This document shows, in pieces, positions 14,660 through 34,626 of a DNA stretch of 57,462 nucleotides. Position 1 is the stretch's first letter; every line of letters begins with the position of its first letter. The stretch is from a virus. The DNA lies in the IMG/VR virus record IMGVR_UViG_3300017960_000003, positions 1-57,462 of that record. One strand, 5' to 3'. The notes below the pieces were generated by a model that made no database searches, was not told the DNA's origin, and saw only the letters and a list, made by a program, of their open reading frames with translations. The translations under genes and the position numbers were made by a program.

Positions 14660-15358
14660 ATGCCTGAGAGATTGGAGACGCGACGGCTGTTGCGCCACCG
14701 AGCGGCGGCGACGTCACGACCTTACATGGCGGCGCAGCTGCCCGGTGGAGAGGTGCTCGTGTTCGACACGCGGCCCTCCGGCGGTGGCCCGTTCTTCCCG
14801 GACATGGACGAGGACCGGGCGGCAGCGTACGCGCTGTCGATGTGCCGCGCGTGGAATGACGCGCTCGGTCGCGAGGACACCACACCACACACGGATCTCG
14901 TACGACGCTTCCACGAGCGCCACCACTTCGGGATCGACCGTAACCTCTGCGAGGAAGGCGGCGATCACGACATGTTCCCCGCTGCGATGCTCACGGCCAT
15001 GGCGATGCAGGTGCTGGCGATGTCCGAGACGCTCGCGGCGTACGCCAGGAAGAGCGAACCGAACGGCGACTGGCGCATGAGTCGCGCGCACAACATGACC
15101 GAGGAACTCGCCGAGGTGCTCTTGGCCATGGCGGCCAAGGATCCTGTCGCGCTGCTCGACGGCCTGGGTGACTTGGCGTATGTCACGCATGGCACCGCGG
15201 TCGTGTACGGGCTTCCGCTGGAGCGCGGGTTCCGGGAGATCCATCGGTCGAACATGACCAAGGACCCCGCGCCGGAAGGCGAGGTCACCCTGCACCCGGT
15301 CAAGGGCGAGAACTACGAGCCGCCGGATCTCGCCGGTTGCTTCGAGGTGACGGAATGA
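14660..15358 (+). CDS. MazG-like all-alpha NTP pyrophosphohydrolase (candidate dCTPase)
   Basis: 232 residues; ATG 14660 follows GAGAGGAGACGAG. The C-terminal half has the all-alpha NTP pyrophosphatase pattern: helix with EELAEVLLA (~145), then LLDGLGDLAYVTHG (~170) supplying the metal-binding Asp/Glu pairs, and PLERGFREIHRSNMTK with KGENYEPPDL at the end, as in phage dNTPases. The N-terminal ~90 residues are not recognised. The gene overlaps the hydroxymethylase start by four bases. By analogy with T4 gp56 it may hydrolyse dCTP to dCMP, both removing normal cytosine nucleotide and feeding the next enzyme. The substrate is inferred from context. Confidence 0.7.
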   Translation: MPERLETRRLLRHRAAATSRPYMAAQLPGGEVLVFDTRPSGGGPFFPDMDEDRAAAYALSMCRAWNDALGREDTTPHTDLVRRFHERHHFGIDRNLCEEGGDHDMFPAAMLTAMAMQVLAMSETLAAYARKSEPNGDWRMSRAHNMTEELAEVLLAMAAKDPVALLDGLGDLAYVTHGTAVVYGLPLERGFREIHRSNMTKDPAPEGEVTLHPVKGENYEPPDLAGCFEVTE

Positions 15359-16401
15359 GCCAGGTCAACCACGCCGCGGATCGCAAGGGCGCGGCGCTGT
15401 GCCTCGACGAGGCGTGGCACTACGCGGCGGCCGAGCTGTGGGACCACGCCGCTCACGCGACGTCGCGAGACGGTGACATCTTCGCGGAGCTTCCGGCCGC
15501 GCGTCTCATGCTCATGAACACCCGCGCCGTGTGGATGATGGGGCCGCGCAGCCCTTCACCGCTGTACGCTGCGGGCGAGCTCATGTGGTACCTCAGCGGG
15601 TCGGAGGATGGCGAGTTCATCTGCCACTATGCTCCGAGTTACGAGCGGTTCCTCAACGACGGCGTCGCGCTCGGCGCGTACGGGCCGCACATTCGTGGCC
15701 CGCTCAAGAGCGTGGGTGGCTTCGACCCGCTCATGCGGATCGCGTCGCTTCTCACAGCGAAGCCCGATACCCGGCAGGCCGTGTTGCCGATCTACGGCTA
15801 TCACGACCTCCAGGCTGCGGGCTCGCTGGCGAACGACATACCCTGCACACTCGGTCTTCAGTTCCTCGTGCGCGATTCGAGTCTCAACGTGATCTCGACC
15901 ATGCGCTCGAACGACCTATGGCAGGGTCTGCCGTACGACATCTTCGCGTTCGCGACCATCAACGTTCTGCTGGCGCACCACCTCGACCTCTCGCCAGGAT
16001 GGATCTGCCACCAGGCGGGATCGCTTCACCTGTACGAGCGCCACGCTGAGGCGACGCACCGCGCGATACTCAGCGGCCAAGACATGTACGCGCGACCGCC
16101 GAAGCTGGGGTGGTGGACGCGTCGCGAGCCGGGCCGGCTGTTCCACGATCTCGCCGCCGCGGTCGCGCTCGAGCGTCGCTTTCGCGAGGATCGCGAGGTG
16201 CCGCTGGCCGAAGCGATCTCGTGCATCCAGCAGAGTCTCGGGGCGCGAACGCTGCTCGGCACCATCGTCGCGCTCTGCTACGCGAACCGCCGGGCCTTCA
16301 ACATCGACGAAGCGAACGCGATGAACGTCGTCATCCCCGACTGGCTCATCGCCAAGGTCATCAACTGGCAGGGCCGTCAGCGAGCGTGGAGGAAGTCATG
16401 A
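15355..16401 (+). CDS. ThyA-family pyrimidine hydroxymethylase, probably dCMP-type
   Basis: 348 residues. Thymidylate-synthase-fold landmarks are all present: E75 in GELMWYLSG, catalytic Cys164 in NDIPCTLGLQ, phosphate-binding RSND (184-187), and SLHLYERH (223-230). The key residue is Asp195 in GLPYDIFAF, where thymidylate synthases have Asn (N177 of E. coli). T4 dCMP hydroxymethylase has Asp at this place, and that change is known to switch preference from dUMP to dCMP. The enzyme would therefore use methylenetetrahydrofolate to make 5-hydroxymethyl-dCMP. Neighbours are a MazG-like pyrophosphatase and a dNMP kinase, as needed for such a pathway. It starts at ATG 15355, overlapping the upstream stop. 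Confidence 0.85.
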   Translation: MSQVNHAADRKGAALCLDEAWHYAAAELWDHAAHATSRDGDIFAELPAARLMLMNTRAVWMMGPRSPSPLYAAGELMWYLSGSEDGEFICHYAPSYERFLNDGVALGAYGPHIRGPLKSVGGFDPLMRIASLLTAKPDTRQAVLPIYGYHDLQAAGSLANDIPCTLGLQFLVRDSSLNVISTMRSNDLWQGLPYDIFAFATINVLLAHHLDLSPGWICHQAGSLHLYERHAEATHRAILSGQDMYARPPKLGWWTRREPGRLFHDLAAAVALERRFREDREVPLAEAISCIQQSLGARTLLGTIVALCYANRRAFNIDEANAMNVVIPDWLIAKVINWQGRQRAWRKS

Positions 16402-16946
16402 TCACGCTCATCATCGAAGGCGCAGACAACCTCGGCAAGACCACGGCCGCGAAGAGGCTCGCGGCGCTGCACCTCGATCGGACCGGGGAGGCTATCCCCG
16501 TCATCCATCACGGCCCGCCAACGGACCCCGTGATGGAATACTCGACCGAGCTCCTGCGCCCTGCCATACACGACCGTGGCCATCTTGGCTGGCTTGTGTG
16601 GCAAGGCATGCTGGCGCAAAGCGGGACGGAGTTCGACCGCCTCGCGATGGAGCAGCTGGTCCGGGTGCTGCGCGTCGTCCATCGTGTGATCGTCGTGTGC
16701 CTGTACGCCGATGACGACTGGTACTGCGAGCGCATCGCAGAGTACGACGATCGCGATGAGCTCATGCCGCCCAACATTCGACGGGTCGCGAACCGCGCGT
16801 TCGCGCAGCTCTGCTGGTCGCGCGACGGTAACTGTGAGAAGTACGTCGACATCCCTTACAACGTCAGCGTCAGCGGGTTCCCCAGCGATGCGACCTTGAA
16901 CCGCTGGCTGGACCGCTGCTCCCTGCGCCAGAGTGAGGCGCTCTGA
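16398..16946 (+). CDS. Deoxynucleoside monophosphate kinase (thymidylate-kinase-like)
   Basis: 182 residues; ATG 16398 overlaps the hydroxymethylase stop and follows GGAGGAAGTC. The P-loop is IIEGADNLGKTTAAKRL (residues ~5-21), typical of the thymidylate kinase branch. VVCLYADDDWYCERI is consistent with the strand before the lid region. In this cassette it would phosphorylate the unusual nucleotide made by the upstream enzyme, as T4 gp1 does for hydroxymethyl-dCMP. Substrate choice is inferred from position. Confidence 0.75.
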   Translation: MITLIIEGADNLGKTTAAKRLAALHLDRTGEAIPVIHHGPPTDPVMEYSTELLRPAIHDRGHLGWLVWQGMLAQSGTEFDRLAMEQLVRVLRVVHRVIVVCLYADDDWYCERIAEYDDRDELMPPNIRRVANRAFAQLCWSRDGNCEKYVDIPYNVSVSGFPSDATLNRWLDRCSLRQSEAL

Positions 16947-16953
16947 GGTCACA

Positions 16954-18975
16954 GTGATAGAGCTTGAGACCCACGACGGTCGAGTCGTCAATCTCGTTGA
17001 GCACGCCCGTGAGCTGCCAGAGTTCACGGGCGTTCAGCGGGTCTACGCCGACTGCGAGACCACGTCCGGCGACCCGAAGGTGAAAGCCTTCAAGCCGTAC
17101 GGTGGGCATCGCATCGCTGGCGTGGCCGTGCTGCGCGACGACGAGGCGACGGCGTGGTACGTCCCGGTGCGCCACAAGCATGGGCGCAACATCCCGGCGC
17201 AGGCGGTGCGTCGCTGGCTCCGAGACATGATGACCGTCCCGGAGTGGGTGAACCACAACGTCAAGTTCGACGCGCACTTTGTCGCGTGCGCCGGCCGTGG
17301 CGACGAGCTCGTCTTCCCTGGCCGCATGATCGACACCGCCACGCTCGCCAAGTGCCACGACACGGATCGCATGGGTCACGGGCTCAAGGCGGTATGCGCC
17401 GACTGGCTCGAGCAAGATCTCTCTGAGCAGGACGAGGTCGAGGCGTACCTGAAGAACGAGAAGACCAAGGACTACGGGGAGCTGCCAGCGGATCTCTGCG
17501 GGCGGTACGCCGGCCAGGACGTCTTGATGAACCGCGAGCTCATGCGGTTCCTCGAGGACCAGCGGCCGGAACAGATGCGCGACACGTGGGAGACCGAGAT
17601 CCTTCTCACGCCTGTCCTCTTCGACATCGAGCGAGCGGGCATGCGTGTGAACGATCTCGCCGTGAAGAAGCTCAAAGTCAAGACGCTGCGGTCGATACTC
17701 GGGGCGCAGCAGGAGATCGTGGACCTCACTGACGGCCGCGAGTTCGTCGACTCTAGCAAGAACCTGTACGACCTCATCGTGAACGTGCTCGGTCTTCCGG
17801 TCCTCAAGTGGAACACGGACCCCGAGTCGAAGGAGCGTGGCTCGCCGTCCTTCGACAAGGAAGCGCTTGAGCTGTACGGTATGCACCCCGAGGTGCTTCA
17901 CCAGCCGAGGAACGCGCGCGTGATCGAGCTCATCAAGTCGGCGCGCGCTGAGTCGCACTTCCTCAGCAACTACTTGGAGGTCTTCGGTCAGGCGGTTGAG
18001 ACCGGTGGCTTCGTTCATCCGAGCTTCAACCAGCTCATTCGGACGGGGCGCATGAGCGCCTCGGACCCGAACGTGATGGGGATGAGCAAGGCCGCCAAGG
18101 ATCTCATCATCCCCGACGACGACGAGTACGGCATCCTCACTGCGGACGCAGAGCAGATTGAGTTCCGTCTCATCGTCCACTACATCCGTGATGCCGATGC
18201 GATCGCAGCGTACGCGCGTGACCCGGACACGGACTTCCACATGTGGGCGGCGCGGCTGTGCGAGGTCGAGCGCACGCCCGCGAAGACTCTCAACTTTGCG
18301 ATGGGCTACGGCGCAGGGAAGAAGCGCGTCGTGTCGCTGCTGCTCACGGACCCCACGATCATGCACGACGTCGGCGAGATCATCGCCCAGCAGATCGAGG
18401 AGGGTCGCGTACCCGAACGCCTACGCGCACAGGCGTACCACCGGCTGTGCGAGCGTCGCGCGCAGGGCGTGTACACGCGGTACCACGAACGCCTGCCCGG
18501 GATCAAGAGGACCTCGCGAGCTGCGGCGCAGAAGTGCATCATGCGTGGGTACGTCTTCAACCCGTTCGGCCGTCGCCGTCACTTGCCGCCTCGCGCTGCG
18601 CACAAGGCCTTCAACACCATCGTCCAGGGCGGTGCGATGGACATCATCAAGCGGCGGATGATTCGGTTGGCTCCGCGTTACAACTCGTGGGTGCGGAACA
18701 GCGACATCCGTCTCTTCGGAAACGTCCACGATGAGCTGCCGCTTCACGGGCCACGCGAGGCGCTGGAGGACCCGAAGATCCAGGCGCGCATCCACGCGGT
18801 GCTCGAGACCACAGACATCGACTTCCGGGTTCCGTTCACCTGGGAGGCCGGCTACTCACCGCTGTCGTGGAAGGCGGCGGGAGCGAAAGAGAACGTCATC
18901 GACAAGATCCGGCTGCGGAAGATCGCCCTCGAGGAGGGCTTCCTCGGCCCGCAAATGCGGAGGTACTACGAGTGA
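16954..18975 (+). CDS. Family A DNA polymerase with 3'-5' exonuclease
   Basis: About 673 residues. The exonuclease domain shows YADCETT (Exo I, D and E), NHNVKFDAHF (Exo II) and YAGQDVLMNREL (Exo III). The polymerase domain shows motif A TADAEQIEFRL (~395), motif B RTPAKTLNFAMGYGAGKK (~440) and motif C VHDELP (~590). It copies the phage genome and would have to accept modified dNTPs if the neighbouring pathway works as inferred. GTG 16954, after TGAGGTCACA, is preferred; an in-frame GTG at 16933 overlaps the kinase gene but lacks a ribosome-binding site. Confidence 0.92.
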   Translation: MIELETHDGRVVNLVEHARELPEFTGVQRVYADCETTSGDPKVKAFKPYGGHRIAGVAVLRDDEATAWYVPVRHKHGRNIPAQAVRRWLRDMMTVPEWVNHNVKFDAHFVACAGRGDELVFPGRMIDTATLAKCHDTDRMGHGLKAVCADWLEQDLSEQDEVEAYLKNEKTKDYGELPADLCGRYAGQDVLMNRELMRFLEDQRPEQMRDTWETEILLTPVLFDIERAGMRVNDLAVKKLKVKTLRSILGAQQEIVDLTDGREFVDSSKNLYDLIVNVLGLPVLKWNTDPESKERGSPSFDKEALELYGMHPEVLHQPRNARVIELIKSARAESHFLSNYLEVFGQAVETGGFVHPSFNQLIRTGRMSASDPNVMGMSKAAKDLIIPDDDEYGILTADAEQIEFRLIVHYIRDADAIAAYARDPDTDFHMWAARLCEVERTPAKTLNFAMGYGAGKKRVVSLLLTDPTIMHDVGEIIAQQIEEGRVPERLRAQAYHRLCERRAQGVYTRYHERLPGIKRTSRAAAQKCIMRGYVFNPFGRRRHLPPRAAHKAFNTIVQGGAMDIIKRRMIRLAPRYNSWVRNSDIRLFGNVHDELPLHGPREALEDPKIQARIHAVLETTDIDFRVPFTWEAGYSPLSWKAAGAKENVIDKIRLRKIALEEGFLGPQMRRYYE

Positions 18976-20222
18976 AGAAGGAAGACGGGACCGCAATCGG
19001 AGTCCACGCGTTCGCGGGTGGCCTCACACTGGGCATGGACCGCGTGTTCAACGTCAAGGGTCAACTCGAAGTCTTCGACCTCGGCTGCGACAGCGTGCGT
19101 CACAATCTCGGGATCCCCGTCGTCCGTTGCGACGACGCGTCGTGGATGGACTCGCCGCCCGAGTGGGCCGAGAAGGCGCAGATCGTCTTCGGCAACCCGC
19201 GGTGCACGGCGTTCAGCTGTCTCAACCGCGGGTGCGGGAAAGACGGGTACGGGCCCGAGGGCCGCGCGACCAAGGACGTTCGGCAGGCCGTCGACTTCGT
19301 GGAGCGCGTGCGTCCGCACGTGTTCGTGTGGGAGTCCGTTCAGCCAGCGATCACCGCGGGCCTTCCGCTCGTCCTCGACATCGAGGAGCGCCTCGCCAAG
19401 CTGCGGTACTCGCCGACGCGGCTGCTGCTCAACGCAGCGACGTGGCACAACTCGCAGAACAGGCGTCGCTTCTTCCACGTGTTCACGAAGCCTGGCATCC
19501 ACTTCTGGCCCGACGTCCCGGAGGTCCCGAAGAAGTGGCTCACCGTCCGCGAGGTGATCGAGGACCTCGCTGAGCACGAGGTGACCAGCGACCATCAGTG
19601 GAACTACGAGACACCGGAGGACGCGGCGCAGGACGAGGTGCTCAACCACCACTGGTGGGACGACCCGTGCTTCACGCGTCTCGTCTGCTCGCTCGTCCCG
19701 CCAGGGCGCTCGATGAATGACGTGCCGTGGGACGACCTGCTCAAGATCCAGGCGGAGGGATTCAGCGGTTACGTCGACGGCTACCTCAGAGGCGCAGGCT
19801 CGTTCTCGCGTCACGCCGCGCGACGTCTCCATCCCGACGGCGCGAGCCGCGTCGTGTACGGTGGCTGGCACATGACGATCCACCCGTGGCTCGACCGCGG
19901 CGTCACCGTGCGTGAGACCGCGAGGCTCATGGGGTTCCCCGACGACTGGGTCTTCCTTGGTCCGGCCGGTGGCTACGCGCAGATCGGGAAGGGCGTCGTG
20001 CCGGCCGTCGCGGAGTGGCTCGCGTGGCAGATCCTTCGAGCCATCGACTCGCCGAACCCGACCAAGCGCAAGAAGGAGTGGCGGTTCAACACGCGGACGC
20101 GGATGGTCGAGGAGCGCCGCGTGCCGGATGGCGAGGTGCGCACGTTCGATCTCACGCGCATGACTGCGAAGGTGCCGCGCCCGAAGCTCGCGCCTCGACG
20201 GAGCGTGTTCGAAGGCTACTGA
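18972..20222 (+). CDS. C5-cytosine DNA methyltransferase-like protein with altered motifs
   Basis: 416 residues, GTG start overlapping the polymerase stop, with GGAGG ten bases upstream. Motif I is HAFAGGLTLGM; motif IV is GNPRCTAFS (Cys78), where standard enzymes have PCQ; motif VI is WESV instead of ENV; motif VIII is SQNRRRFF; and the C-terminal RETARLMGFPDDW with IGKGVVPAVAEWLA matches motifs IX-X. The catalytic Cys and the motif VI Glu are kept. It may methylate cytosine or act on an already modified base. Its place after the hydroxymethylase, kinase and polymerase genes ties it to base modification. Confidence 0.75.
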   Translation: MKKEDGTAIGVHAFAGGLTLGMDRVFNVKGQLEVFDLGCDSVRHNLGIPVVRCDDASWMDSPPEWAEKAQIVFGNPRCTAFSCLNRGCGKDGYGPEGRATKDVRQAVDFVERVRPHVFVWESVQPAITAGLPLVLDIEERLAKLRYSPTRLLLNAATWHNSQNRRRFFHVFTKPGIHFWPDVPEVPKKWLTVREVIEDLAEHEVTSDHQWNYETPEDAAQDEVLNHHWWDDPCFTRLVCSLVPPGRSMNDVPWDDLLKIQAEGFSGYVDGYLRGAGSFSRHAARRLHPDGASRVVYGGWHMTIHPWLDRGVTVRETARLMGFPDDWVFLGPAGGYAQIGKGVVPAVAEWLAWQILRAIDSPNPTKRKKEWRFNTRTRMVEERRVPDGEVRTFDLTRMTAKVPRPKLAPRRSVFEGY

Positions 20223-22220: not shown

Positions 22221-22238
22221 CATTGCGTATCCGCAATG
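22221..22238. promoter_or_regulatory. 18-bp inverted repeat upstream of nucleotide-sugar operon
   Basis: CATTGCG-TATC-CGCAATG, a perfect inverted repeat with 7-base arms, lies between the terminator and the GAGAGGAGGAAGC ribosome-binding site of the first sugar gene. I see no clear sigma70 promoter beside it, so it may be an operator, a site for another factor, or a leader hairpin. Confidence 0.6.
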
Positions 22239-22253
22239 TCGAGAGGAGGAAGC

Positions 22254-22853
22254 ATGCATCAACTCAGAGTTGCGAGCGTCGCCCCCTTCGAGGGAGTGAA
22301 GCTCGTCAAGTACGGTCGCTTCGACGACGAGCGCGGGTACTTCGCCGAGCCGTTCCGCGCCAGCCAGATGGCCGACGTCGTCGGCGCGCCCATCGTCCAG
22401 ATGAACGAGTCGCTGTCGCACGCGGGCGTACTCCGAGGTCTCCACTTTCAGTGGGCGCCCTTCATGGGCAAGCTCGTTCGCGTGATCGACGGGTACATGG
22501 TCGACATCGTGTGCGACATCCGCGTCAACTCGCCGACGTACGGCGTGGTCCAGATGGTCCGCATGCTCCCTGGCAGCGGATGGATCTGGGTCCCGCCGGG
22601 TTTCGCACACGGGAACGCGTTCCCGGTCCGCACGCGCATTCAGTACCTGTGCACGGGCGAGTACTCGCAAGAGACGGAGGCCTGCCTGTCGCCACTCGGG
22701 ACGGACCTCGACTGGTCCCTCTGCGACCCCGCCGTGCTCGAGGTCGTGCGCGCGTGCCCGACCATCTCGATGAAGGACCGCGACGGCTACTCGGCGCAAG
22801 AGTGGCTGGCCGACGAGCGGTCGATGAACTTCCTGTATGAGGACCTCCGATGA
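22254..22853 (+). CDS. RmlC-like dTDP-4-dehydrorhamnose 3,5-epimerase
   Basis: 199 residues from ATG 22254 after GAGAGGAGGAAGC. RmlC cupin hallmarks are in order: FDDERGYFAEPFR (~23-35), the NESLSHAGVLRGLHFQ block (51-66, with the His64 expected in catalysis), KLVRVIDGYMVDIVCDIR, SPTYG, and IWVPPGFAHG. The known reaction is double epimerisation of a dTDP-4-keto sugar at C3 and C5. It is translationally coupled to an RmlD-like gene. RmlA and RmlB are not in the window, so the host must supply the starting nucleotide sugar. Confidence 0.85.
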   Translation: MHQLRVASVAPFEGVKLVKYGRFDDERGYFAEPFRASQMADVVGAPIVQMNESLSHAGVLRGLHFQWAPFMGKLVRVIDGYMVDIVCDIRVNSPTYGVVQMVRMLPGSGWIWVPPGFAHGNAFPVRTRIQYLCTGEYSQETEACLSPLGTDLDWSLCDPAVLEVVRACPTISMKDRDGYSAQEWLADERSMNFLYEDLR

Positions 22854-23575
22854 CCCGCGACGCCAGCGTCCTCTTCACCGGCGGCTCGGGCCTCTTGGGC
22901 GCCGCCATGCGAGCCAGGCGCCCCGGCCTCAGGTACCCGCCTAGGGGCGCGTTCGATGTAACCCGCCCGTCGGCAATGCGAAACTACGTGGAGGCCCTTA
23001 GCCTGTCCTGTATCGTCCACGCAGGGGCCTTTACGTCCCCACCACGGGTAGACGCTGACCCTGCCCGGGCGATCGAGGTCAACGTGGCGGGCACCGCGCA
23101 CGTGGCCGCGCTGTGCGCGGCGCGGAAGCTGCGCCTCATCTACATCTCGACGGACTACGTCTTCCGTGGCACGCGAGGACCGTACGCCGAGGACGATCCC
23201 GTGTACCCCGTCAACTGGTACGCGTGGTCGAAACTCGGAGGTGAGTGCGCCGCTCGTCTCTGTCCGGGCAGCCTCATCATCCGCACCTCGTTCGGACCGG
23301 ACGAGTTCCCGTACGAGAAGGCGTTCTACGATCAGCTCACGTCGCGGGTCGCGGTGAGCGTGTTCGCAGACGCGCTGTCGCGACTCATCGACTCGGACGT
23401 GTCCGGAGTCCTGCACGTGGGCCACTACGAGGGCCGCTCCGTCCTGGCGTTCGCGCGGGAGCAAGGCGCGGCGCCGGAGCAAGTCACTCGCTTCGACATG
23501 CCGTTCGCTGTTCCGTATGACACCACGCTCGACGTCGACCGATGGCTCGAGCTCAACGAGGAAGGACGTGTGTGA
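22850..23575 (+). CDS. RmlD-like NAD(P)-dependent sugar reductase
   Basis: 241 residues, shorter than the usual ~290-300 of RmlD. The nucleotide-binding motif is LFTGGSGLLG (~9-18); then HAGAFT, IYISTDYVFRG, and the catalytic YAWSK (Y-x3-K). It is an extended short-chain dehydrogenase that would reduce a dTDP-4-keto sugar made by the neighbouring epimerase. Start ATG 22850 overlaps the RmlC-like stop by four bases. The N-terminal DNA at 22915-23050 has runs of GGGGCC and CCCTAG types unlike its flanks. Confidence 0.8.
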   Translation: MTRDASVLFTGGSGLLGAAMRARRPGLRYPPRGAFDVTRPSAMRNYVEALSLSCIVHAGAFTSPPRVDADPARAIEVNVAGTAHVAALCAARKLRLIYISTDYVFRGTRGPYAEDDPVYPVNWYAWSKLGGECAARLCPGSLIIRTSFGPDEFPYEKAFYDQLTSRVAVSVFADALSRLIDSDVSGVLHVGHYEGRSVLAFAREQGAAPEQVTRFDMPFAVPYDTTLDVDRWLELNEEGRV

Positions 23576-24540
23576 TGCGCATCGTACTCTGCGGAGGTGG
23601 GGGCTTCATCGGCTCGGCGCTGGCGCCCGAGCTCGTCCAACGCGGCCACGACGTCACGGTGCTCGACCTCTTCTGGTTCGGGCGCGCGATGCCGAGCGAC
23701 GTCACGGACGTGAAGCAAGAGCTCTTCGACTGCTGCGGCGACGACTTCGAGAATGCGGACGTCGTCGTGTTCCTGGCCGGCCTGTCGAACGACCCGATGG
23801 CCGAGTTCAGCCCGGCTCTGAACTTCAAGTACAACGCCGCGCTCCCTGCGCTGCTCGCGTTTCTCGCGCGTGGCATCGGCGTGCGTCGCTTCGTCTACGC
23901 CTCGAGCTGCTCCGTGTACGGGTGGGCGCCCGACGAGGAGCAGACCGAGAGCGGCACCATCGACTGCGACTACCCGTACGGCATCGCGAAGCTTCAGGGC
24001 GAGGCCGGCGTTTCTCGGATGCTGTGCGACGGAGAGTTCGAAGTCGTCGCGCTGCGGAAGGGAACCGTCTGTGGTCACAGCCCGCGCCCGCGTGCGGACC
24101 TCATCGTGAACGCGATGATCAAGTCCGCGCTCACCGAGGGCGTCATCTACATCAACGACGCCACGACGTGGCGTCCGCTACTCAGCGTCCGCGACGCCGT
24201 GCGTGCGTACGTGCGTGCGATCGAGGGACGCGCCAGCGGCGTGTTCAACGTCGCGAGCGTGAACGCGACCGTGCGCGAGGTCGCGGACGACGTGCTCGCG
24301 ACGCTGTGCCTGTTCAAGTACGGCGCCGGCGTCGAGATCGTGCACCGCATGCGGAAGGACCGCCGCAGTTACCGCGTGAGCACCGCGTCGTTCCGCGCCG
24401 TGTTCGGCAACTGCTTCAGCGACGGCGTACGCGACATGGCCGCGAGCGTCCTTCAGAACCTCGAGGCGTACGGGGACTTCAGCGACCCCGCGCTGAGCAA
24501 CATCGAGACGTTCAAGGCCCTCGGAGAAAATCTCAGTTAA
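23575..24540 (+). CDS. NAD-dependent sugar epimerase/dehydratase (extended SDR)
   Basis: 321 residues from ATG 23575, which shares one base with the RmlD-like stop. Motifs: GGGGFIG (8-14), VVFLAGLSND, the SSCSVYG substrate motif, and catalytic YPYGIAK. The C-terminal region (TTWRPLLSVRDAVRAYV, GVFNVAS) is typical of nucleotide-sugar epimerases such as GalE- or RmlB-type enzymes. The exact sugar is not determinable. Together the three genes are a nucleotide-sugar operon; in this phage the sugar may be put on DNA bases or on a surface structure. Confidence 0.8.
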   Translation: MRIVLCGGGGFIGSALAPELVQRGHDVTVLDLFWFGRAMPSDVTDVKQELFDCCGDDFENADVVVFLAGLSNDPMAEFSPALNFKYNAALPALLAFLARGIGVRRFVYASSCSVYGWAPDEEQTESGTIDCDYPYGIAKLQGEAGVSRMLCDGEFEVVALRKGTVCGHSPRPRADLIVNAMIKSALTEGVIYINDATTWRPLLSVRDAVRAYVRAIEGRASGVFNVASVNATVREVADDVLATLCLFKYGAGVEIVHRMRKDRRSYRVSTASFRAVFGNCFSDGVRDMAASVLQNLEAYGDFSDPALSNIETFKALGENLS

Positions 24541-30710: not shown

Positions 30711-31735
30711 TGAGCTGTACCTACTACTGTGACGGGTGTGGGAAGAAGCTCGGTTCGCACGTCGAGGGCGTGCTGAAGGCCGAGCACCGCACTCGCAACG
30801 GGCGCACCCTTTCCGTGTTCGTTCAGCCACAGCTGGTCAACGGCGAGCACTGGTGCCACGACTGCCAGCGCGCGGCCATCGCGTCCACGGGAGACGGGCG
30901 CAAGCAGCCGATGGCAGAGCGTGTCGACCTGCCCGTGGTTGAGAAGCGCGGCGAGGAGCTGCCGCTGTCGCGGTATCGCAACAGCGACTGGCGCGTGAGC
31001 GTGATCAACGACATCATGAATAGCGCTGCCGACGCTGCGCCGCAGTACGGCATCGACAAGATGATCGCGCTCGAGTTGCGGGAGCGCGCGCAGCTCGCGT
31101 TGCTCGACGCGTGGGTCGCGGGCGTCAGACATCAGCTCTCGCTTCGCGATGACTTCGGCGCCGACGAGAAAGCGTACGCCGGTGAGGCGCTTCACGAGCT
31201 CGCGAGGGTCGTCACGGGTCAGATCACCGACGTCAAGGCTGCGCTGAAGGGCGCGTACAACACCGGACTCGGAGTCGGCGTCAGGCGCAACTACAACGAT
31301 CTCGAGGCTGCGCGCGAGCAGCGGAACAAGTACAAGGAACGGCGCGACGCCGTGTACCGGGTGTTCCGCAGTGTCATCGCCGCGCTCGGCTTCGAGGACA
31401 TGCCCGTCGAGACGCTTCACGCGGTACAGCTGGACCAGTGGCTGGCGCGAAGCGAGCCGCGTCTTCGCGAGCTGGTCGAGACCCGTGATAGGCTGCGCTC
31501 GGCGAATCGCACCCTCAGTCGTCGTCGGCGTGAGCGCGACGCCGCGGTCGAGGACCTCAGCACCGTCGCGAGGATCATCGAGTGCGAAGACCAGCAGCAC
31601 ATCATCGAGCGGGCGCGCCAGCTGCGGTCTGCGAAGTCGACGGCGTGGGACATGCTCAGCACGCTGCGAACGAAGATTCAGCATGGCGCGCCGCGCGATC
31701 AGCTGCTCGAGAACATCGCCGAGGTGCTCGGATGA
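30710..31735 (+). CDS. Zinc-finger protein with long helical region
   Basis: 341 residues; ATG 30710 follows GAGAGAGGAGGAAGTG. The N-terminus YYCDGCGKK (~5-13) with CHDCQ (~50) forms a likely zinc site. Residues ~130-330 are mostly helical, with strong coiled-coil character (EAAREQRNKYKERRDAVY, then RSANRTLSRRRRERD). It overlaps ThyX by four bases. It may be a scaffold or regulatory protein; no family recognised. Confidence 0.65.
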   Translation: MSCTYYCDGCGKKLGSHVEGVLKAEHRTRNGRTLSVFVQPQLVNGEHWCHDCQRAAIASTGDGRKQPMAERVDLPVVEKRGEELPLSRYRNSDWRVSVINDIMNSAADAAPQYGIDKMIALELRERAQLALLDAWVAGVRHQLSLRDDFGADEKAYAGEALHELARVVTGQITDVKAALKGAYNTGLGVGVRRNYNDLEAAREQRNKYKERRDAVYRVFRSVIAALGFEDMPVETLHAVQLDQWLARSEPRLRELVETRDRLRSANRTLSRRRRERDAAVEDLSTVARIIECEDQQHIIERARQLRSAKSTAWDMLSTLRTKIQHGAPRDQLLENIAEVLG

Positions 31736-32376
31736 ATGTCATCGAGCCGAGCTACCAGATCGAGTACGTCACCGGCACGGAGTGTGACGATGACCCCGTT
31801 CAGTCGCCCCTCGCTCTCATCGAGCGCGCGGCCCGTACGTGCTACAAGTCCGAGGCCCGCATCGCGCCCGGTACTGCCGAGAAGCTGACGCGTCATCTCA
31901 TCAAGCGCGGGCATCACGCGATGCTCGAGTTCGGGTTGGTGGTCGTGCGGTTCATCGTCGACCGCGGCGTCAGCCACGAGCTGGTCCGCCACCGCCTCTG
32001 CTCGTTCGCGCAGGAGTCGACGCGCTTCTGTAACTACAGCGGCGGTGTCACGTTCATCCGACCGCCGTGGCTAGACCAGGGCGGTTCCACGTCGGCAAGT
32101 GGTCGCTGGCGGCACGCCATGTCGAGAGCGGAGTCCGACTACCTCGCCTTGCTCCGCGGAGGTTGGACGCCGCAGCAGGCGCGCAGCGTTCTGCCGAACA
32201 GCACGAAGACCGAGATCGTGGTCGGCGCCAACTTCCGTGAGTGGCGAACGATCTTCGGTCTCCGCGTGGCGAAGGCCGCGCACCCGCAGATGCGGCAGGT
32301 CATGGTGCCCTTGCTCGAAGAGGTCAAGACCATCGTTCCCGTTCTCTTCGACGACGTTGAGGTGCCTGATGCTTGA
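31732..32376 (+). CDS. thyX: Flavin-dependent thymidylate synthase
   Basis: 214 residues. The ThyX signature is R86-H-R-x2-S-x4-S-x-R (RHRLCSFAQESTRF). LIERAARTCYKS and KRGHHAMLEFG are conserved N-terminal blocks, and LPNSTKTEIVVGANFREW with HPQMRQVMVPLL is the C-terminal part. It methylates dUMP to dTMP with FAD, NADPH and methylenetetrahydrofolate. Its presence frees the ThyA-family protein at 15355 from making dTMP and supports a different substrate for that enzyme. Confidence 0.92.
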   Translation: MNVIEPSYQIEYVTGTECDDDPVQSPLALIERAARTCYKSEARIAPGTAEKLTRHLIKRGHHAMLEFGLVVVRFIVDRGVSHELVRHRLCSFAQESTRFCNYSGGVTFIRPPWLDQGGSTSASGRWRHAMSRAESDYLALLRGGWTPQQARSVLPNSTKTEIVVGANFREWRTIFGLRVAKAAHPQMRQVMVPLLEEVKTIVPVLFDDVEVPDA

Positions 32377-33419: not shown

Positions 33420-33628
33420 GGCTCCCGAAGAAGAAGGCCAAGGCGCAGAGCAAGGGCCAGATCATCTGCGCCGTCAACGCAACCGCGCGGTGCGAGATCG
33501 CTGCCGTGACGCCGGACAAGGCGGCGCTGGTCCGCCTCGGATGGAAGAGGTCCTCGCCGGAGGACGGGAAGCACGACACGTGGGCCTGCCCGCACTGCTC
33601 GAAGATCGTGGAGGTACTCGGACGATGA
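33416..33628 (+). CDS. Small basic zinc-ribbon-like protein
   Basis: 70 residues, GTG start overlapping the previous stop. Basic N-terminus (LPKKKAKAQSKG), then Cys residues in ICAVNATARCE and ACPHCSK, spaced as in a zinc ribbon. It overlaps the glycosyltransferase-like gene by four bases. A nucleic-acid-binding role is likely by composition only. Confidence 0.6.
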   Translation: MRLPKKKAKAQSKGQIICAVNATARCEIAAVTPDKAALVRLGWKRSSPEDGKHDTWACPHCSKIVEVLGR

Positions 33629-34626
33629 AAGCGCTCATCACTGGCATGACACCGACGCAATGCGGTCGGCAGGCTCGCGGCATCACGGTCGCGGGTGACG
33701 GCTGGCGCAGCGCACTCGAGCACGCGGGGTGGGAAGTGGATCACCGCGTGATCGCTGTCAACGAGGACCTCGGCGAGTACGATGCCGTCCTCGTCGGGAT
33801 CGGACAGATCAACTCCATGACTGCGAGGCACGCGAGCAGCGCACTGTACGCCTTGCTCGACCGGCCGGACGCGAAGCTCTTCTGCGACGACTGGCAGATC
33901 ACGCAGGCGCACTCTGGCTTCCGCGTCGCACGCTGGTCGCCCATGCGCCTGTACACGATGGACGGTCGGCCGGGCAATACGCTGCTCTACCGCGATCACC
34001 AGGACGCCGTCATGAAGGTGCTCAAGGAGTTCGCGAAGCCGCGGTGGAAGCGACCGATGCTCGTCGCGACGCACGGCGACGGCGTGCCGTACAAGCTGAA
34101 GGTCCCCGGTCCGGTGACGTGCGCGGACCCGTCCAACTTCACTCCGAGGTGGGCGCCGTACCCCTGGCCGCGTGAGCGTGCGTGGATCTGGGCATCGCTG
34201 TACCGCTACGAGAAGAGCAAGAACCGCAAGACGCCGTGGGCGGGCACGTGGCCGATCGTCCATCACGGACGCGTCCGCGACCTGCCGAACGGCGTCGACC
34301 TCGACAACGACAAGGAGTTCATTCCGCAGGACGAGCTCATCGAGAAGATGCAGCGAACCGTGGGCTACGTCGTCCCCGAGCGCCCGCTCATGGGCAGTGG
34401 CTGGTGGCGTCACCGCTACGTTCTCGCGAGCGACAGCGGTAACGTGGTCGTGTGCCATCCGGACGAGGCCGCGATCTTCGGTGATGCGTACCTCGTCACG
34501 CCGCAGGAGGTCGAGGCGCATCCGGAACCGCACGCGCTCTGGCAGGCGCAACGCGATGCGCTCAACGCCGTGGTGTGGTCGGCCGACCGCTGCGCCGAGG
34601 TCGTGGACGAGTTCATGCGCTCATGA
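33625..34626 (+). CDS. GT-B glycosyltransferase-like protein (candidate DNA base glycosyltransferase)
   Basis: 333 residues. The N-terminal Rossmann-like lobe reads MKALITGMTP, then YDAVLVGIGQIN (~53-64), and AKLFCDDWQI, the same order of elements as in T4 beta-glucosyltransferase. The C-terminal lobe has GYVVPERPLMGSGWWRHRY followed by NVVVCHPDEAAIFG and YLVTPQEVEAH, the usual GT-B nucleotide-sugar-binding end. A role in glycosylating hydroxymethylcytosine in phage DNA is inferred from the upstream dCMP-hydroxymethylase-type gene and the nucleotide-sugar operon; another acceptor is possible. Confidence 0.65.
   Translation: MKALITGMTPTQCGRQARGITVAGDGWRSALEHAGWEVDHRVIAVNEDLGEYDAVLVGIGQINSMTARHASSALYALLDRPDAKLFCDDWQITQAHSGFRVARWSPMRLYTMDGRPGNTLLYRDHQDAVMKVLKEFAKPRWKRPMLVATHGDGVPYKLKVPGPVTCADPSNFTPRWAPYPWPRERAWIWASLYRYEKSKNRKTPWAGTWPIVHHGRVRDLPNGVDLDNDKEFIPQDELIEKMQRTVGYVVPERPLMGSGWWRHRYVLASDSGNVVVCHPDEAAIFGDAYLVTPQEVEAHPEPHALWQAQRDALNAVVWSADRCAEVVDEFMRS

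Follow-up and report, generated by a model that had tools for sequence, protein, structure and literature searches.

The gene at 15355-16401 of the window, the whole 57,462-nucleotide stretch of viral DNA that was analyzed, very probably specifies a dCMP 5-hydroxymethylase, and the DNA of its phage very probably contains modified cytosine. This prediction draws on active-site residues, relatives, tree, fold and neighboring genes. The initial annotation had read the product as a pyrimidine hydroxymethylase of the dCMP type from Asp195, and that reading is now supported beyond this one residue by additional active-site positions, the match to the CMP hydroxymethylase MilA, the tree and the flanking genes. 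No near DNA match to the window was found among 50,697 phage records. The result singles out a group of ~57-kb siphoviruses, mainly metagenomic, in which cytosine is likely to be modified, with a candidate sugar decoration and a C5-methyltransferase partner. MetaGPA (PMC8670742) had already linked the residue that defines the class, at position 177 in E. coli ThyA numbering, to phages with modified cytosine; the present analysis goes beyond this with a tested four-column residue rule, the operon of these phages and its C5-methyltransferase partner.

Table 1. Predicted features of the window that bear on cytosine modification.
Feature	Coordinates	Strand	Evidence and remarks
MazG/PRA-PH-type all-alpha NTP pyrophosphatase	14660..15358	+	Pfam PRA-PH 2.9e-11; PDB DR2231 MazG-like E 2e-6
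dCMP-type hydroxymethylase	15355..16401	+	348 aa; C164, E75, D161, T165, M183, S185, R140, D195
P-loop NMP-kinase-like protein (GADNLGKTT)	16386..16946	+	PHROG 761 thymidylate kinase E 5e-5 (weak)
DNA polymerase family A (PolA)	16933..18975	+	Pfam 3e-38; 44% identical to MW202657
C5-cytosine-methyltransferase homologue, NPRCT motif IV	18972..20222	+	Pfam DNA_methylase 3e-18
dTDP-4-dehydrorhamnose 3,5-epimerase (RmlC-like)	22236..22853	+	Pfam 2e-35
RmlD-like NDP-sugar reductase	22850..23575	+	Pfam 2e-33
NAD-dependent NDP-sugar epimerase/dehydratase	23542..24540	+	Pfam Epimerase 7e-32; PDB matches
ThyX, flavin-dependent thymidylate synthase	31732..32376	+	Pfam Thy1 2.3e-44; ORF opens 31582
Candidate glycosyltransferase, possible DNA-base modifier	33625..34626	+	homologues annotated glycosyltransferase (Gordonia phages, DSL-LC01)

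The hydroxymethylase frame is intact, with zero internal stops, and its GC contents of 0.66, 0.48 and 0.85 at codon positions 1, 2 and 3 follow the pattern of a coding gene. Its ATG sits within the stop codon of the preceding gene in an ATGA overlap, and the two genes are coupled. Pfam assigns the protein to the Thymidylat_synt family (E=1.2e-22), and both PHROGs and generic family annotation label it thymidylate synthase (TS). It shares the ThyA fold and the catalytic Cys, Glu, Arg, Ser and Asp: alignment with E. coli ThyA pairs E75, R140, C164, H225 and Y227 with E58, R126, C146, H207 and Y209, and R184, S185 and D187 with R166, S167 and D169, in agreement with the retention of Cys164, E75 and RSND claimed in the initial annotation. 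The same annotation had placed an Asp opposite E. coli N177. When we checked for another residue at this position in an alignment that also contained T4 gp42, SPO1 gp29 and others, we found D195 there, in the block GLPYDIFAF.

This Asp is not a chance replacement, because columns 143, 147 and 165 also hold the residues of cytosine hydroxymethylases (D161, T165 and M183). D161 lies three residues before the catalytic Cys164 (C-3) and corresponds to T4 Asp145, the published hydroxylation signature; in T4 this residue activates water for hydroxylation, and D145N is inactive (PMC6400193). T165 falls in column 147, the second position reported by MetaGPA (PMC8670742). S185 and R140 are the equivalents of Ser167 and Arg126, the deoxyribose determinants, and Tyr96 stands where TS has Trp80. 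With T4 gp42 the protein thus shares the catalytic Cys, Glu and Tyr, the C-3 Asp, the Thr after Cys, the Met-Arg-Ser-x-Asp motif and the Asp at 177. It differs from gp42 in overall sequence (21% identity), in length (348 against 246 amino acids, with a C-terminal helical region) and in having Gly107 opposite T4 Ser94, at the second position ahead of the catalytic Tyr. This last difference counts against the assignment. However, the Ser/Thr at that site is a proposed signature and not a general defining feature, and T4 S94A keeps ~25% activity (PMC6400193); Gly is the common state among cytosine-type relatives (55 of 74), and the dUMP hydroxymethylase SPO1 gp29 has Ala.

Sequence, structure and phylogeny place the protein among the cytosine-type enzymes. 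The top PDB sequence match was MilA (5b6d, 5jp9; E 6e-28), with TS following at ~2e-12. An AlphaFold2 model (pLDDT 90.9) gave the same order in Foldseek, where MilA matched over the whole chain (E 2.6e-22, TM 0.78/0.84, 337 columns) and TS came next (E 5e-15, 248 columns). In a 99-row tree built by a quick method, with T4 gp42 as a long branch, the cytosine, uracil and TS classes each fell on one side of a branch (support 76 for the cytosine branch), and the window protein lay within a 19-row cytosine-type set (SH-aLRT 99). The tree also served as a check for clustering with dUMP synthases, and the protein fell in the cytosine class.

Four active-site columns (143, 147, 165 and 177) were sufficient to tell the three classes apart in IMG/VR sets. 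They read D/T/M/D in 74/74 cytosine-type viral relatives, L/H/Q/N in 76/76 ThyA-type sequences and D/N/N/N in 64 of the 68 uracil-type (dUMP-hydroxymethylase-type) sequences, counts that are not fully independent of the search patterns, which held column 177 for the cytosine set, 165 for part of the uracil set and 147 for part of the ThyA set. The rule was unmixed in 150 cytosine-type and ThyA-type sequences, with few exceptions among the 68 of uracil type. Two further sets, picked by other genes, are independent of these columns. Selecting genes by a C5-methyltransferase neighbor returned D/T/M/D in 29/29 readable TS-like genes, many of these contigs also occurring in the cytosine set. Selection by the glycosyltransferase candidate gave a cytosine-type hydroxymethylase in 9/9 records, with D/T/M/D in eight and E/T/M/D in one. 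The separate TS-type proteins of T4-like records retain Leu at C-3 and Asn at 177. An odd uracil-type relative (L249:7986-9197) reads D/N/C/D and so has Asp177 without its Thr and Met partners. For genes that are routinely annotated as thymidylate synthase, four residues can thus decide between three enzymes, and phages with modified cytosine become recognizable from sequence, which is relevant to restriction, CRISPR cutting and sequencing.

The residue opposite N177 gives the choice of cytosine but not the product, because E. coli or L. casei TS with N177D as its single change methylates dCMP and does not hydroxymethylate it, according to the passage of PMC8670742 that cites this work. The earlier claim that an Asn-to-Asp change separates TS from hydroxymethylase therefore stands for the substrate and not for the reaction. 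Such mutants, together with the 5-methylcytosine in XP12 phage DNA (PMC8670742), speak for a methylase of the XP12 kind, which would choose dCMP via Asp195 and finish by hydride transfer to yield 5-methyl-dCMP. We consider this very unlikely, since the protein has the C-3 Asp that is essential in T4, where all 76 TS sequences have Leu, and a Tyr in place of the Trp80 found in 75 of those 76. Hydroxylation is the expected outcome because of Asp161 at C-3, the loss of Trp80 and the kinship with MilA, T4 gp42 and other hydroxymethylases.

The closest structure also bears on the choice of sugar, as MilA prefers CMP and just two residues of the window protein, S185 and R140, point to dCMP. A MilA-like enzyme that produces hmCMP for a purpose other than DNA would fit the best match by sequence and structure and the shared D/T/M/D set, and is nevertheless highly improbable. 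MilA, which acts in antibiotic synthesis, favors CMP via Ala176 and Lys133, and A176S/K133R switches it to dCMP (PMC5175136); the window protein has Ser and Arg at these very positions and was rejected as a CMP hydroxymethylase by this criterion. Moreover, its gene is flanked by a pyrophosphatase, a kinase-like gene and a DNA polymerase. A second thymidylate synthase or a dUMP hydroxymethylase, as the generic family label would have it, is scarcely credible. The combination of Asp195, Thr165 and Met183 occurs in neither of these classes as compared here, and the tree separates both from the window protein. ThyA was rejected on D195, T165, Y96 and D161 (against Asn177, His147, Trp80 and Leu at C-3), with Gln at column 165 as a further difference, and on tree and fold. 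The dUMP hydroxymethylases of the SPO1 gp29, M6 and Kuttervirus type share the C-3 Asp and the catalytic core, but they have Asn at 147, 165 and 177, and were rejected on D195 and T165 as well as on tree and fold. The phage does encode a separate ThyX, as first noted, which would make another dTMP synthase redundant; this argument is supportive and goes no further, since the T4-like relatives checked carry their own TS besides the hydroxymethylase.

The genes around the predicted dCMP hydroxymethylase resemble a T4-like module for modified dCTP, with the substrates of the pyrophosphatase and the P-loop protein assigned by inference. The pyrophosphatase, whose start may lie at 14726 and whose 3' end forms the ATGA overlap, is conserved beside the relatives of the hydroxymethylase, and its predicted role is to eliminate dCTP and provide dCMP. 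The P-loop protein, a predicted hm-dCMP kinase, has homologues in the same place in relatives. In the best annotated relative, MW202657 (56,278 bases, circular), the order is the same: helicase, primase, pyrophosphatase, hydroxymethylase, kinase homologue, PolA and C5-methyltransferase. Within 3 kb of 62 cytosine-type genes we found the pyrophosphatase 29 times, the kinase 28, dCMP deaminase 22 and PolA 37, and at 36 uracil-type loci the respective counts were 0, 0, 0 and 11, a contrast that is partly sequence distance, the neighbor queries having come mostly from the cytosine side. T4 likewise encodes a dCTPase (gp56) and replaces the cytosine of its DNA with a modified base. The TS-family proteins of cytosine-modified MetaGPA contigs (PMC8670742) share Asp177, a changed residue 147 and a co-occurring PRA-PH pyrophosphatase, but unlike these contigs the window has neither the carbamoyltransferase PF16861 nor the dCMP deaminase PF00383. 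Carbamoylation of hmC as in MetaGPA was rejected on the first of these absences. The second counts against the dCMP-hydroxymethylase reading, the deaminase being frequent in relatives.

By homology and gene context, modification would begin with hydrolysis of dCTP to dCMP by the MazG-like enzyme. Cys164 would then attack C6 of dCMP. The cytosine ring would be held and protonated by Asp195, selection of deoxyribose and phosphate would fall to Ser185 and to Arg140' of the partner subunit, and methylene-tetrahydrofolate would donate the one-carbon unit. Water activated by Asp161 would add to the exocyclic methylene to give 5-hydroxymethyl-dCMP. The P-loop protein and a host NDP kinase would convert this to hm-dCTP for incorporation into DNA by the phage PolA, with ThyX presumably providing dTMP.

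Further decoration of the hydroxymethyl group is probable, and our best guess, tentative as it is, combines the candidate glycosyltransferase with an NDP-deoxysugar from the RmlC, RmlD and epimerase genes. Co-occurrence suggests this role: homologues of the candidate are present in T4-like Aeromonas, Stenotrophomonas and Providencia phages and in Gordonia phages, adjoin UDP-galactopyranose mutase in DSL-LC01 and IME13, and are accompanied by a cytosine-type hydroxymethylase in every record checked, the nine mentioned above. Profile searches of PDB and Pfam with this protein returned nothing usable, a viral scan gave no matches, and an AlphaFold2 model from three sequences reached a pLDDT of 35.5. 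T4 has a known beta-glucosyltransferase (beta-GT) and not a candidate of this type; hhalign between the two gave a probability of 7.9%, which is not significant. Glycosyltransferases of families 1 and 2 were not found in the window.

The C5-methyltransferase homologue poses a puzzle, as it partners an enzyme that would remove plain cytosine from the precursor pool. In its subfamily NPRCT replaces the usual PPCQ motif IV, so that both neighbors of the Cys are altered; C78, E121-S-V and Q162-x-R-x-R are invariant and the other catalytic motifs are kept. The gene stands directly before the hydroxymethylase in many relatives. A viral scan with the enzyme's own pattern gave 30 loci, with a TS-like gene within 2.6 kb in 30/30 and within 540 bp in 29, and a scan of 84,980 genomes gave no relative of the NPRC type. 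Loci with a member of the subfamily include L029, L033, L035, L048 and L263. One speculative and rather doubtful idea is that the enzyme acts on hydroxymethylcytosine DNA, its attack on C6 serving to exchange the hydroxymethyl group or add to it and produce a new kind of hypermodified cytosine. In favor of this idea are the linkage at all 30 loci, the D/T/M/D set of every readable linked TS-like gene, the lack of a relative in the genome scan, and the retained catalytic Cys, Glu and QxRxR beside the altered motif IV; against it, the viruses are mostly of one lineage and the linkage may reflect descent. More simply, the enzyme might merely methylate leftover cytosine.

TS-like proteins with the full dCMP-type residue set were also present at 26 actinobacterial genome loci (L311-L334, L337, L339), where the phage-type pyrophosphatase and kinase gave no match. 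In Salinispora (L320) and Kitasatospora (L334) the gene has an NDP-sugar epimerase on one side and a carbamoyltransferase on the other, and a glycosyltransferase or kinase-like gene is close by. These loci possibly represent a cellular nucleoside or DNA-modification cluster. The TS-like protein of LuckyBarnes (L014:4926-6479) has N/N at 147/177 and is of the uracil type. Because of this, its neighbors annotated as beta-glucosyl-HMC-alpha-glucosyltransferase may, judging from these residues, modify hmU rather than hmC.
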